From IMG/VR virus record IMGVR_UViG_3300035698_019895, positions 1-64,000 of that record: DNA of 64,000 bases; one strand, written 5' to 3'. This DNA comes from a virus. A program made the translations under genes and the position numbers. The notes under the pieces are model-generated. The model worked only from the letters and a program-made list of their open reading frames with translations, ran no database searches and was not told where the DNA came from. Positions 17,818 through 26,768 of this stretch are shown here, one piece after another. Each line of letters begins with the position of its first letter. The first letter of the stretch is position 1.

Positions 17818-17939
17818 CTAACGAACAAATATTAAAGAAAGCTATAATGGAATGTTGGGCATATCACCTACAACGAATGGTCTTAGAACCCGAACCGTTA
17901 AAATATTTAGAAAAGTTTTTAACAAAGGAGCAAAAATGA
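17814..17939 (+). CDS. 41-residue helical peptide upstream of pncB
   Basis: ATGA-coupled to both neighbours (MTNEQILKKAIMECWAYHL). It carries the AAAGGAG site that serves pncB. Confidence 0.45.
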   Translation: MTNEQILKKAIMECWAYHLQRMVLEPEPLKYLEKFLTKEQK

Positions 17940-19039
17940 GAAGTTTTAATTTACCAGATGACTATAAACCGTATATAGATAAATATTTTCTTCGAGCAAA
18001 AGAAATACTACAAAAAGAAAACTTGAATCCAATAGTAAAAGCTCAAGTATTCATTAGAAAAGGAGATTGTAAATTATATGGTATTGATGAAGCAATAGCA
18101 ATCATCATGAACTATGCTTCTAACAATAAACTTATTAAGATACATGCTCTACAAGAAGGTGACCATTTCGAACCTCGTGAAACATTAATGACTATTGAAG
18201 CTCCTATCCAAGAAATTATTGATTTAGAAACAATGTATTTAGGAGTTTTAAGTGCTGAGACAACTACTCATAATGATAATAGAGATATAGATTTTGTAGA
18301 AGTAGAAAAAAATATGAAGCAAGTAGTAGATTTAGTAGATGGAAGACCTGTATCTTACTTTGGTGCTAGACATTGGAGATATGATGCAGATTTCCAAATA
18401 GCTGCTGCTTGTTTTAGAGGAGGAGCTAAAACTTGTTCTACAGATATAGGAGGTTCAGCAAATGCAACTAAAGGTATGGGTACTATTCCTCATGCATTAC
18501 AAGTTATATATCACTGGAAATATGGATTGAAAAAAGCAGTAGTAGAATCAACTAAAGCTTTCGATAGACATATGAACAAAGAAATTCCTAGAATAGCTTT
18601 AATAGATTATGCTAATAGAGAAATAAGTGACACTATTTTAACAGTTAATGAAATACCCCATCTATCTGGAATTAGAATAGATACTTGCGGAGAAAATGTT
18701 ATGCAAGGTTGTTTTGCCAATCCAGATAATGACAATATGGAAAAATTTATATTTGATAAAGGAGTTTGTGTGTTAGGCACTACTTTATTAAGAGATGTAT
18801 TAAAAACTGAAGGTAATTATAAAATAATGCTTTCTAGTGGATTTGGCAATCCAGAAAAAGTAAAAGCATTTCTTACAGCAGAAAAAGATTTAGGATATAA
18901 AATATTCGATGGACTAGGAGTTGGCGGAGTATTTGAATCTCGTATGGCAACTATGGATATAATTTCTGTAGACGGTCAAAAGATTCACAAAGTTGGTAGA
19001 ATTCCTAGACTTAATGAAAAATTAAAGCAAGTGGTGTAA
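17936..19039 (+). CDS. pncB: nicotinate phosphoribosyltransferase
   Basis: Converts nicotinate and PRPP to nicotinate mononucleotide. Typical features are the N-terminal RKGDCKLYGIDEAI region, FEPRETLMTIEAP, the LGVLSAETT helix, FGARHWRYDA, and a late-barrel IDTCGENVMQG. It resembles the type II (archaeal-like) nicotinate enzymes more than nicotinamide PRTases, though substrate choice cannot be proven by eye. 367 residues. ATG 17936 with AAAGGAG is chosen over the in-frame ATG 17852, which lies inside the previous gene. First of four NAD+ genes here. Confidence 0.82.
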   Translation: MRSFNLPDDYKPYIDKYFLRAKEILQKENLNPIVKAQVFIRKGDCKLYGIDEAIAIIMNYASNNKLIKIHALQEGDHFEPRETLMTIEAPIQEIIDLETMYLGVLSAETTTHNDNRDIDFVEVEKNMKQVVDLVDGRPVSYFGARHWRYDADFQIAAACFRGGAKTCSTDIGGSANATKGMGTIPHALQVIYHWKYGLKKAVVESTKAFDRHMNKEIPRIALIDYANREISDTILTVNEIPHLSGIRIDTCGENVMQGCFANPDNDNMEKFIFDKGVCVLGTTLLRDVLKTEGNYKIMLSSGFGNPEKVKAFLTAEKDLGYKIFDGLGVGGVFESRMATMDIISVDGQKIHKVGRIPRLNEKLKQVV

Positions 19040-19048
19040 GGAGATTTT

Positions 19049-19507
19049 ATGAATGGTTTAGAAGGCGAAAAATTATTAAAAAAAGCAGAAGCAATAGCCA
19101 GAAAAGCACATGATGGACAATTTCGATATGATGATAAAACTCCTTTTATAGAACATCCTAAATATGTTGCTGAATTATTCATAATAACAAAGCGACTTCC
19201 TATTGTTATTCATCATTATGACTACGAAGCAATGATAGTTGCATGGTTGCATGACGTCATAGAAGATAGTAGTATGACTTATGACGTATTGATAAATGAA
19301 GGTATTCCCATAGATTTAGTATATACTATTTCTATTTTGACAAGAAACGAAAAAGAAAGCTACTTGAATTATATATTAAGAATAAAAAGAAATGAATTAG
19401 CTAGAAAAGTAAAATTGGCGGATTTAGCTCATAATATACTTACATCTAATAATAAACATCAAGTAGATAAATATTTATTGGCTCAACATATTTTAGGAAC
19501 GATATGA
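19049..19507 (+). CDS. HD-domain (p)ppGpp hydrolase-like protein (MESH1/SpoT type)
   Basis: 152 residues with RKAHDGQFRYD, the IEHP histidine, WLHDVIEDS (H68, D69, E72, D73) and KLADLAHN, the pattern of RelA/SpoT hydrolase domains. There is no synthetase domain, so it fits a small alarmone hydrolase. This could relieve a stringent response during infection, or act on another nucleotide. AAGGAG precedes the start. Confidence 0.8.
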   Translation: MNGLEGEKLLKKAEAIARKAHDGQFRYDDKTPFIEHPKYVAELFIITKRLPIVIHHYDYEAMIVAWLHDVIEDSSMTYDVLINEGIPIDLVYTISILTRNEKESYLNYILRIKRNELARKVKLADLAHNILTSNNKHQVDKYLLAQHILGTI

Positions 19508-19836
19508 TTTATATATGGATTTTAGCACTTCATTTTATAGCTGATTTTCTTTGTCAGTCTAGAGAAATGGCACTTAAAAAGTCTGTAGATAAACATATAT
19601 TGTTTAATCATTGTTTTATCATCTTTATTGTATTATCACTAGGCACATTTAATATATTGTTTGCTTTATTCAACGCAATAACACATGCTTTTATAGATTG
19701 GAATATATGGCGTGTTTATAGAATAAATAAACAACAAGATTTTGAGTTCTGGAAAGACCATTGGTTCTATGTTACAATAGGATTTGACCAATTGTTACAT
19801 ACAAGCTTACTTATGTTATCATGGAGTTTATTATAA
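19504..19836 (+). CDS. DUF3307-like membrane protein
   Basis: 110 residues, three to four hydrophobic segments, opening ALHFIADFLCQSREMALKK, then HCFIIF and HAFIDW and a late FDQLLH. This His/Asp pattern in the membrane is that of DUF3307 proteins. A second family member is at 28455. The function is unknown. Confidence 0.65.
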   Translation: MIYIWILALHFIADFLCQSREMALKKSVDKHILFNHCFIIFIVLSLGTFNILFALFNAITHAFIDWNIWRVYRINKQQDFEFWKDHWFYVTIGFDQLLHTSLLMLSWSLL

Positions 19837-25211: not shown

Positions 25212-25229
25212 TAATAGAGGAGGATTGTC

Positions 25230-25967
25230 ATGAAATTAATGAATGAAAATATGGAAAATTTATCTATCTTAGGTGGTAAGGGAGCCTTCAATTTCTCTGC
25301 TACTAAAATAGAGGACCTAGGTTCTACAGAGTATACTCTAGTTACTATAACATTAGATAAATCCGGTAGCGTGTCTTCTTACAGCTCTGAATTGTTGAAG
25401 GCTTTGAAATCAATAATTAACGCTTGTAAGAAAGCACCAAGAGCAGAAAATCTATTATTGAGAATAGTAGAATTTAACAGCAAACTTCAGGAAGTTCATG
25501 GATTTAAATTGCTTAGTACGATAAATGCTGATGATTATGATGAACCAAGTCCTGACGGAATGACAGCTCTTTTTGATTCTGTCTATGATAGTGTAGGAGC
25601 AACAGCTACTTATGCTAAGAAATTGACAGAACAAGATTTTGGAGTTAATGGTATTTGTTTTATTATCACTGATGGAGCTGACAATGTTTCTGTTTCTACT
25701 CCGAATATGGTTTTAGAAATGATTAAAAAAATTAAAGTTGGAGAAGAAATAGAATCTTTGATAACTGTATTAGTTGGTATTAACACATCTCAATGCAAAG
25801 ATGAATTAGAAAACTTTAAGGACGAAGCAAAGCTTACTCAATTTGTAGATGTAGGGGAAGCTACTAGTGGCAAGTTAGCCAAATTAGCTGCTTTCGTTAG
25901 TCAATCAATTAGTTCTCAAAGTCAATCTTTAGGTTCTGGTGGACCAAGTCAACAGTTAAACTTTTAG
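25230..25967 (+). CDS. vWA-domain protein (YegL/TerY-like)
   Basis: 245 residues. MIDAS motif DKSGS (D43, S45, S47), Thr in PDGMTALFDS and Asp in IITDGADN make a complete metal site. The C-terminus is a Ser/Gln-rich tail. GAGGAGG precedes the start. Together with the PP2C and kinase genes just upstream it forms a kinase-phosphatase-vWA triad, here interrupted by pncA. Confidence 0.8.
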   Translation: MKLMNENMENLSILGGKGAFNFSATKIEDLGSTEYTLVTITLDKSGSVSSYSSELLKALKSIINACKKAPRAENLLLRIVEFNSKLQEVHGFKLLSTINADDYDEPSPDGMTALFDSVYDSVGATATYAKKLTEQDFGVNGICFIITDGADNVSVSTPNMVLEMIKKIKVGEEIESLITVLVGINTSQCKDELENFKDEAKLTQFVDVGEATSGKLAKLAAFVSQSISSQSQSLGSGGPSQQLNF

Positions 25968-25988
25968 TTGCAAGAGAAGGATATCAAT

Positions 25989-26768
25989 ATGTTAAAAATA
26001 GATTGTAAAAAAGAGACGGATAAAATAGTAAAATTTATCCAAGATACTTTCAAAGAAAAAGGATTTGAAAAAGCTGTCATTGGTGTCTCTGGTGGGTTAG
26101 ATAGTGCTGTTATAGTTGCTTTATTAGTAAAAGCATTAGGCAAAGATAATGTGTGTGGTTACTATATGCCAGTAGAAACTCCTAAAGATTTTACAGGTGA
26201 TGCTTATGTTGTTACTGATAGATTTAAAATTCATATGGACACTTTTGGAATTAAATCATTTATTGAGATGTTCACAACTACTTTTCTTGACCTAGCTGCT
26301 TACAAAATTAGAACAGGAAATATTATGGCTAGAACTAGAATGATGATTTTATATGATAGGTCTGCTTTTCATAAAGCTTTAGTAGTAGGAACAAGCAACA
26401 AGACAGAATTAACTTTGGGATATTTTACATTATATGGAGACAGTGCTTGTGCTTTAGAACCAATAGGACATTTATATAAAACACAAGTGAAACAGTTAGC
26501 AGAATATCTAGAAGTTCCTAAAAAAATTATAGAAAAAGCTCCAAGTGCAGAATTGTGGGAAGGCCAAACAGATGAAAACGAATTAGGTATGTCTTATGAA
26601 GAAATGGATAAAATACTTTTTATAATTATGTCTCCTCAATTTAGATATTGTGATATAGAAACAATAGATTTATTAGGATATAAAGAATTAAGAGAAAAAA
26701 TAGAAACACTGATAGACAACAATAGATTTAAATCAGAATCATCTAGAATAATAAGAGAACAATTATGA
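25989..26768 (+). CDS. nadE: ammonia-dependent NAD+ synthetase
   Basis: Final step of NAD+ synthesis. PP-loop GVSGGLDSA, then IRTGNIMARTRM, VVGTSNKTELTLGYFTLYGD and PSAELWEGQTDENELG are classic NadE motifs. 259 residues without a glutaminase domain, so ammonia is the donor. ATG 25989 behind AAGGAT is preferred to the in-frame TTG 25968. Completes PncA-PncB-NadD-NadE. Confidence 0.94.
   Translation: MLKIDCKKETDKIVKFIQDTFKEKGFEKAVIGVSGGLDSAVIVALLVKALGKDNVCGYYMPVETPKDFTGDAYVVTDRFKIHMDTFGIKSFIEMFTTTFLDLAAYKIRTGNIMARTRMMILYDRSAFHKALVVGTSNKTELTLGYFTLYGDSACALEPIGHLYKTQVKQLAEYLEVPKKIIEKAPSAELWEGQTDENELGMSYEEMDKILFIIMSPQFRYCDIETIDLLGYKELREKIETLIDNNRFKSESSRIIREQL

Follow-up and report, generated by a model that had tools for sequence, protein, structure and literature searches.

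Does this phage locus encode a means of returning nicotinamide to NAD+, and, if so, to what end? The locus lies within what is here called the window, i.e., the whole 64,000-nucleotide stretch of DNA that was analysed, which is part of IMG/VR virus record IMGVR_UViG_3300035698_019895 (record length, 86,490 bases). As read from its sequence, that record is of a bacteria-infecting virus, that is, of a phage. Found around the NAD genes are a clamp loader, a DNA polymerase, a UvsX-like recombinase, a ribonucleotide reductase, and a tRNA nucleotidyltransferase. Eleven tRNA genes are present at 54354-62255, with the tRNA nucleotidyltransferase near by. The ribonucleotide reductase large subunit ORF (40541-42805, 754 aa) possesses an inner stretch, at about residues 290-505, which matches HNH endonucleases and probably is an intein. 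At 6096-8034 a DNA methyltransferase is overlapped by an asparagine-synthase-like PP-loop ATPase, possibly as a DNA modification pair. Among annotated phage records, the closest relatives of the window's nicotinamidase come from huge phages known from metagenomes (462-595 kb), from which it seems likely that the record is one piece of a huge-phage genome.

A sequence-only reading of this DNA had placed a complete, nicotinamide-to-NAD+ pathway in four ORFs, and all four are confirmed, with the same ATG starts and all on the + strand: PncB (nicotinate phosphoribosyltransferase, or PRTase; 17936..19039; 367 aa), NadD (nicotinate-nucleotide adenylyltransferase; 21145..21711; 188 aa), PncA (a long-form nicotinamidase; 24405..25211; 268 aa), and NadE (ammonia-dependent NAD+ synthase; 25989..26768; 259 aa). 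These genes are not one unbroken pathway operon. Other ORFs intervene, including three, overlooked by that reading, which are found between and beside NadD, PncA, and NadE, likewise on the + strand. These encode a PP2C-type protein phosphatase (21959..22708), a protein kinase (22710..24395), and a vWA-domain protein (25230..25967), together described here as the ‘trio’, with PncA sitting between the kinase and the vWA protein. Scans for promoters and terminators returned signals no more than in shuffled sequence. Also present are an acyl carrier protein with a phosphopantetheine site (16356-16628) and a CoaD-like phosphopantetheine adenylyltransferase (19821-20255; 91 bits, cut-off 103), which may supply phage coenzyme A or acyl carrier protein functions. 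Upstream of NadD, at 20252-20988, are a DUF7831 protein and a SLOG/DprA-like protein (PADLOC: ShosA at 1e-10 and weak PsyrA matches).

Identification is most direct with NadE and NadD. NadE exceeds its equivalog cut-off (NF010587; 292 bits vs 255), matches 1xng at 8.5e-50, and carries the SGGxDS P-loop as SGGLDS. NadD similarly exceeds its own (NF000840; 171 bits vs 150), matches 1kam at 7e-35, and retains the HxGH and SSTxIR motifs, as GSFDPIHYGH and HSTLIR. PncB is preceded by a Shine-Dalgarno sequence (AAAGGAG, ahead of the ATG at 17936) and belongs to the PRK07188/PRK08662, i.e., archaeal-type, subfamily. Its best models, PRK07188 (1.2e-42) and PRK08662 (3e-38), are both matched below cut-off, for PRK07188 at 146 bits versus an equivalog cut-off of 378, and same-subfamily relatives (loci L096 and L005) likewise fall below the curated cut-off. 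There are matches as well to QRPTase_N (1.4e-10) and 2i14 (2.5e-14), and both the GTxxH catalytic-histidine motif (GTIPH) and the phosphoribosyl-binding motif RIDTCG are present. As the protein falls below its curated model, it is called PncB from context and motifs, that is, as a divergent, predicted nicotinate PRTase. Single-sequence searches for its relatives, among phages and in IMG/VR, were empty, with profiles needed to find them. Might it act instead on another base? No sign of this was found, with relatives of TIGR01514 type which fill the same slot in other loci scoring above the nicotinate-PRTase cut-off.

With PncA a different approach is required, since its single-sequence score is weak (Pfam 0.0013, below cut-off) and its identity must be secured by family alignment and by fold; a single-sequence search of the PDB yielded no match. 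Across an alignment of 36 sequences, i.e., the window's PncA plus 35 phage relatives, the Asp-Lys-Cys catalytic triad (D13-K159-C209) is invariant. So too are the divalent-metal ligands D56, H58, and H125, with H65 almost so, a site which we take to be equivalent to D49/H51/H57/H71 of M. tuberculosis. The family profile matches yeast Pnc1 at 3e-16. An AlphaFold2 model of the protein (pLDDT 94), when used in a fold search, places nicotinamidases on top at Z 19-24.5 (9u8m at 24.5; 2wt9 and 3v8e both at 24.1), versus Z no greater than 18.8 for cysteine hydrolases not named as nicotinamidases. That this long-form PncA is a nicotinamidase, if one distant in sequence, is a prediction that is thus well supported. 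Furthermore, none of 19 phage records possessing a long PncA have a PF00857 match above cut-off, that is, a classical short PncA. The long PncA takes the place of the short one, with the two types mutually exclusive in phage records. In a tree, phage and cellular PncA sequences interleave, with at least 14 label changes, many of the forks being weak.

Active-site motifs are intact in all four enzymes, so a pathway inactivated by loss of these residues, which was one means by which the earlier claim could have failed, is not what is found. Given these motifs and the recurrence in viral contigs described below, the complete four-enzyme route, i.e., that of Preiss-Handler salvage (PncA-PncB-NadD-NadE), is well supported as a prediction. 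All four activities of that salvage are predicted here, but in this case phage-borne, with a PncA that is long and divergent and a PncB of archaeal-type subfamily. PncA would convert nicotinamide to nicotinate and ammonia, PncB would join nicotinate with PRPP to form NaMN, NadD would adenylylate NaMN to NaAD, and NadE would combine NaAD with ammonia to form NAD+. As NadE is ammonia-dependent, the ammonia released by PncA could be reused. The net effect would be that nicotinamide from any NAD+ cleavage is returned to NAD+. The four enzymes presumably would be active in the infected cell, the benefit being that NAD+ levels may be sustained against consumption by the host or by its NADase defences. 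We thus consider the locus to be, with high probability, an island of phage genes for NAD+ salvage, a reading that is based on gene content, active-site residues, predicted PncA fold, recurrence of the set, and exclusion between the two PncA types.

To what degree do these genes travel together? Anchoring on PncA, 40 viral records (mostly fragments) include 18 with NadE, 17 with a PF04095-type PncB, and 13 with a good NadD. Fifteen large phage records possess both a PncA relative and one or more NAD genes, and in 12 of them PncA has a NAD gene no more than 8 kb away, versus 1.7 expected given uniform placement (P about 6e-10, a value which is only indicative as the records are partly related). 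A separate scan, this one anchored on PncB and considering neighbours within 10 kb, covered 66 distinct viral loci. There NadE is found in 45, NadD in 20, and a nicotinamidase in 43, the latter short in 30 and long in 13, never both. (The long PncAs of loci L201 and L209 are weak profile matches, with PF00857 finding both, and the number of long forms may thus be as low as 11.) All four NAD genes are found in 13 of the 66. Across viral loci the PncB slot is filled by enzymes of TIGR01514, TIGR01513, and PRK07188 types, i.e., by three subfamilies, and the NadE slot by two types (ammonia-dependent and glutamine-dependent). That enzymes of different kinds, predicted to share an activity, have replaced one another repeatedly is a good indication that it is the activity itself which is kept. 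Co-movement among phages of the four genes, which had been proposed as a check, stands in part: the set does recur, with non-orthologous PncA, PncB, and NadE, but the long PncA is found most tightly with the trio rather than with the NAD genes.

Granting the pathway, what is its purpose? One answer, for which we would put the chances at not far short of even, is plain metabolic supply, i.e., NAD+ salvage by auxiliary metabolic genes (AMGs) which serve phage replication, with no anti-defence role. The ribonucleotide reductase, DNA polymerase, and tRNA set also found in the window are typical of large phages and fit with this idea, and Xanthomonas phage X1 (PMC13384950) has been annotated with AMGs that include pncB, nadD, and nadE, that is, nicotinate-branch genes as in the window. 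The gene list quoted from that report does not include pncA, nor does the quoted portion mention the trio, and counter-defence is suggested there (PMC13384950). Supply alone, however, leaves unexplained why the route starts at nicotinamide, a product of NAD+ cleavage. NAD+-dependent DNA ligase also was considered as a reason for salvage and was rejected, 13 of 15 records, which are fragments, giving no match to one.

Counter-defence, to which we would give somewhat less than an even chance, instead takes that starting point as central: once NADase defences (Thoeris, SIR2, TIR) have acted, NAD+ would be rebuilt from nicotinamide, as in NARP pathways, the substrate of the route being exactly the product of NAD+ cleavage. 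Such rebuilding by phages is known, i.e., via NadV/NadM/NadR of phage KVP40 and via NARP1 (Adps-Namat) (PMC9503650, PMC12774641). These resemble the window in that nicotinamide is the starting point. They differ in taking two steps, through a nicotinamide PRTase or ADPR-PP, rather than deamidation and then the nicotinate route, and the four steps of the window's route, versus two in NARP1 or NAMPT routes, count against counter-defence. The SLOG-like and DUF7831 proteins of the same stretch count in its favour. NAD+ rebuilding against NAD+-depleting defences, as the sequence-only reading had envisaged, is plausible, but plain supply explains the genes equally. The two are not mutually exclusive; both accept the pathway and differ on purpose. 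Neither PMC9503650 nor PMC7824862 names nicotinamidase or PncA, and no account of a nicotinamidase-started NAD+ set in phages was found among the open-access papers searched.

What then of the trio? Unbiased counting of neighbours across 97 non-redundant PncA loci, from phages and bacteria, yields vWA (55), kinase (50), PP2C (47), PncB (21), Nudix (16), NadE (11, in two families), and NadD (9). Conversely, a long PncA is found in 45 of 53 viral loci anchored on vWA. The trio is the tightest partner of the long PncA. Moreover, in 31 of those 53 loci PncA and the trio are present while NAD genes are absent to a distance of 10 kb. The PncA-trio pairing thus can stand alone, with later steps then supplied by the host or by distant phage genes, and the role of the trio need not be NAD+ synthesis.

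Conserved residues are found in all three proteins. PP2C (PP2C_2, 9e-9) has D33, G34, D110, D184, D238, and D239 invariant over 25 relatives. The kinase (domain at residues 1-260; pLDDT 91.5) has K38, D133, N138, and D153 invariant and a kinase fold match at Z 18, in a search which covered the kinase domain only. Its C-terminal portion of about 290 aa (275-561) is all-beta, and propeller-like by secondary structure only. For the vWA protein, PF00092 is matched by 14 of 31 relatives (best 4e-8), with the MIDAS residues D43, S47, T112, and D148, as well as S/T45, in all 31.

The same three domain types, vWA, PP2C, and STK, are found side by side in the TerY-P triad (PMC11090510). The window's kinase lacks the CxxC expected of the C-terminal zinc ribbon of the TerY-P kinase, CxxC being found in that part of only two of 42 relatives. 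In work by Gao in 2020, the TerY-P triad is reportedly antiphage. The antiphage variant has an OB fold at the C terminus of its kinase; in the window's kinase that part, of 290 aa, is all-beta by secondary structure. The window-type trio, unlike TerY-P, is linked to PncA and NAD genes, and is found in phages as well as in bacteria. PADLOC gave no TerY-named match for the kinase or PP2C families or for the window's vWA protein, though TerY-P models are unconfirmed in the copy used.

In bacteria, the PncA-vWA-PP2C-kinase order recurs in Acidobacteriota, Armatimonadota (on a 1.36 Mb contig), candidate-phyla bacteria, Pseudomonadota, and others, although some of these contigs could be binned phage DNA. 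Often there is a Nudix gene upstream, with PncB, NadD, or NadE adjoining, giving operons of the form NrtR-PncA-vWA-PP2C-kinase-(NadD)-PncB-NadE. The single upstream Nudix protein put to Pfam is NrtR (winged-helix domain PF21906, 1.6e-27). Bacterial versions of the cluster resemble NrtR regulons of NAD metabolism in adjoining a Nudix gene, whereas the window itself showed no NrtR. No description of a trio linked to NrtR or NAD genes was found among the open-access papers searched. Certain Thiotrichales and Desulfobacterota loci (L060, L061, L062, L063, L064, and L067) have PncA and vWA but neither PP2C nor kinase in the stretch covered, perhaps as a reduced form of the cluster.

An initial interpretation of the trio linkage as meaning that PncA is unrelated to NAD was overturned by whole-record searches, by the bacterial operons, and by exclusion with the short PncA. 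That the PncA-like protein is an amidase of the trio, acting on some other metabolite or a protein with NadD and NadE near by only incidentally, would account for the trio being its commonest neighbour (55, 50, and 47 of 97 loci vs 21 for PncB) and for its weak Pfam score, but is improbable given the retained nicotinamidase triad and metal site, a fold ranking favouring nicotinamidases, the mutual exclusion with short PncA, PncB adjoining PncA without any trio at loci L110 and L078, and the linkage to NrtR.

For the salvage island, then, the most likely role of the trio, itself a guess from gene neighbourhood, is as a phosphorylation switch, with kinase, PP2C, and vWA protein controlling salvage or reporting NAD+ state. 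The more specific suggestion, that in huge phages as in bacteria the trio is a sensor of NAD+ state, and that it either governs the salvage of nicotinamide or has the nicotinamidase for its effector, we view as rather doubtful. If it were true, then what phages carry would be NAD+ repair under regulation, and not a loose collection of metabolic genes.

Phage NAD+ salvage as such is already known, with characterised phage routes for rebuilding NAD+ taking two steps from nicotinamide. A recurrent four-step route, beginning with a nicotinamidase and assembled from non-orthologous enzymes, would mean that there is broad selection among large phages for the conversion of nicotinamide to NAD+. The trio, which in bacteria adjoins NAD genes and NrtR, in turn hints at a possible, undescribed layer of control of NAD+ metabolism.
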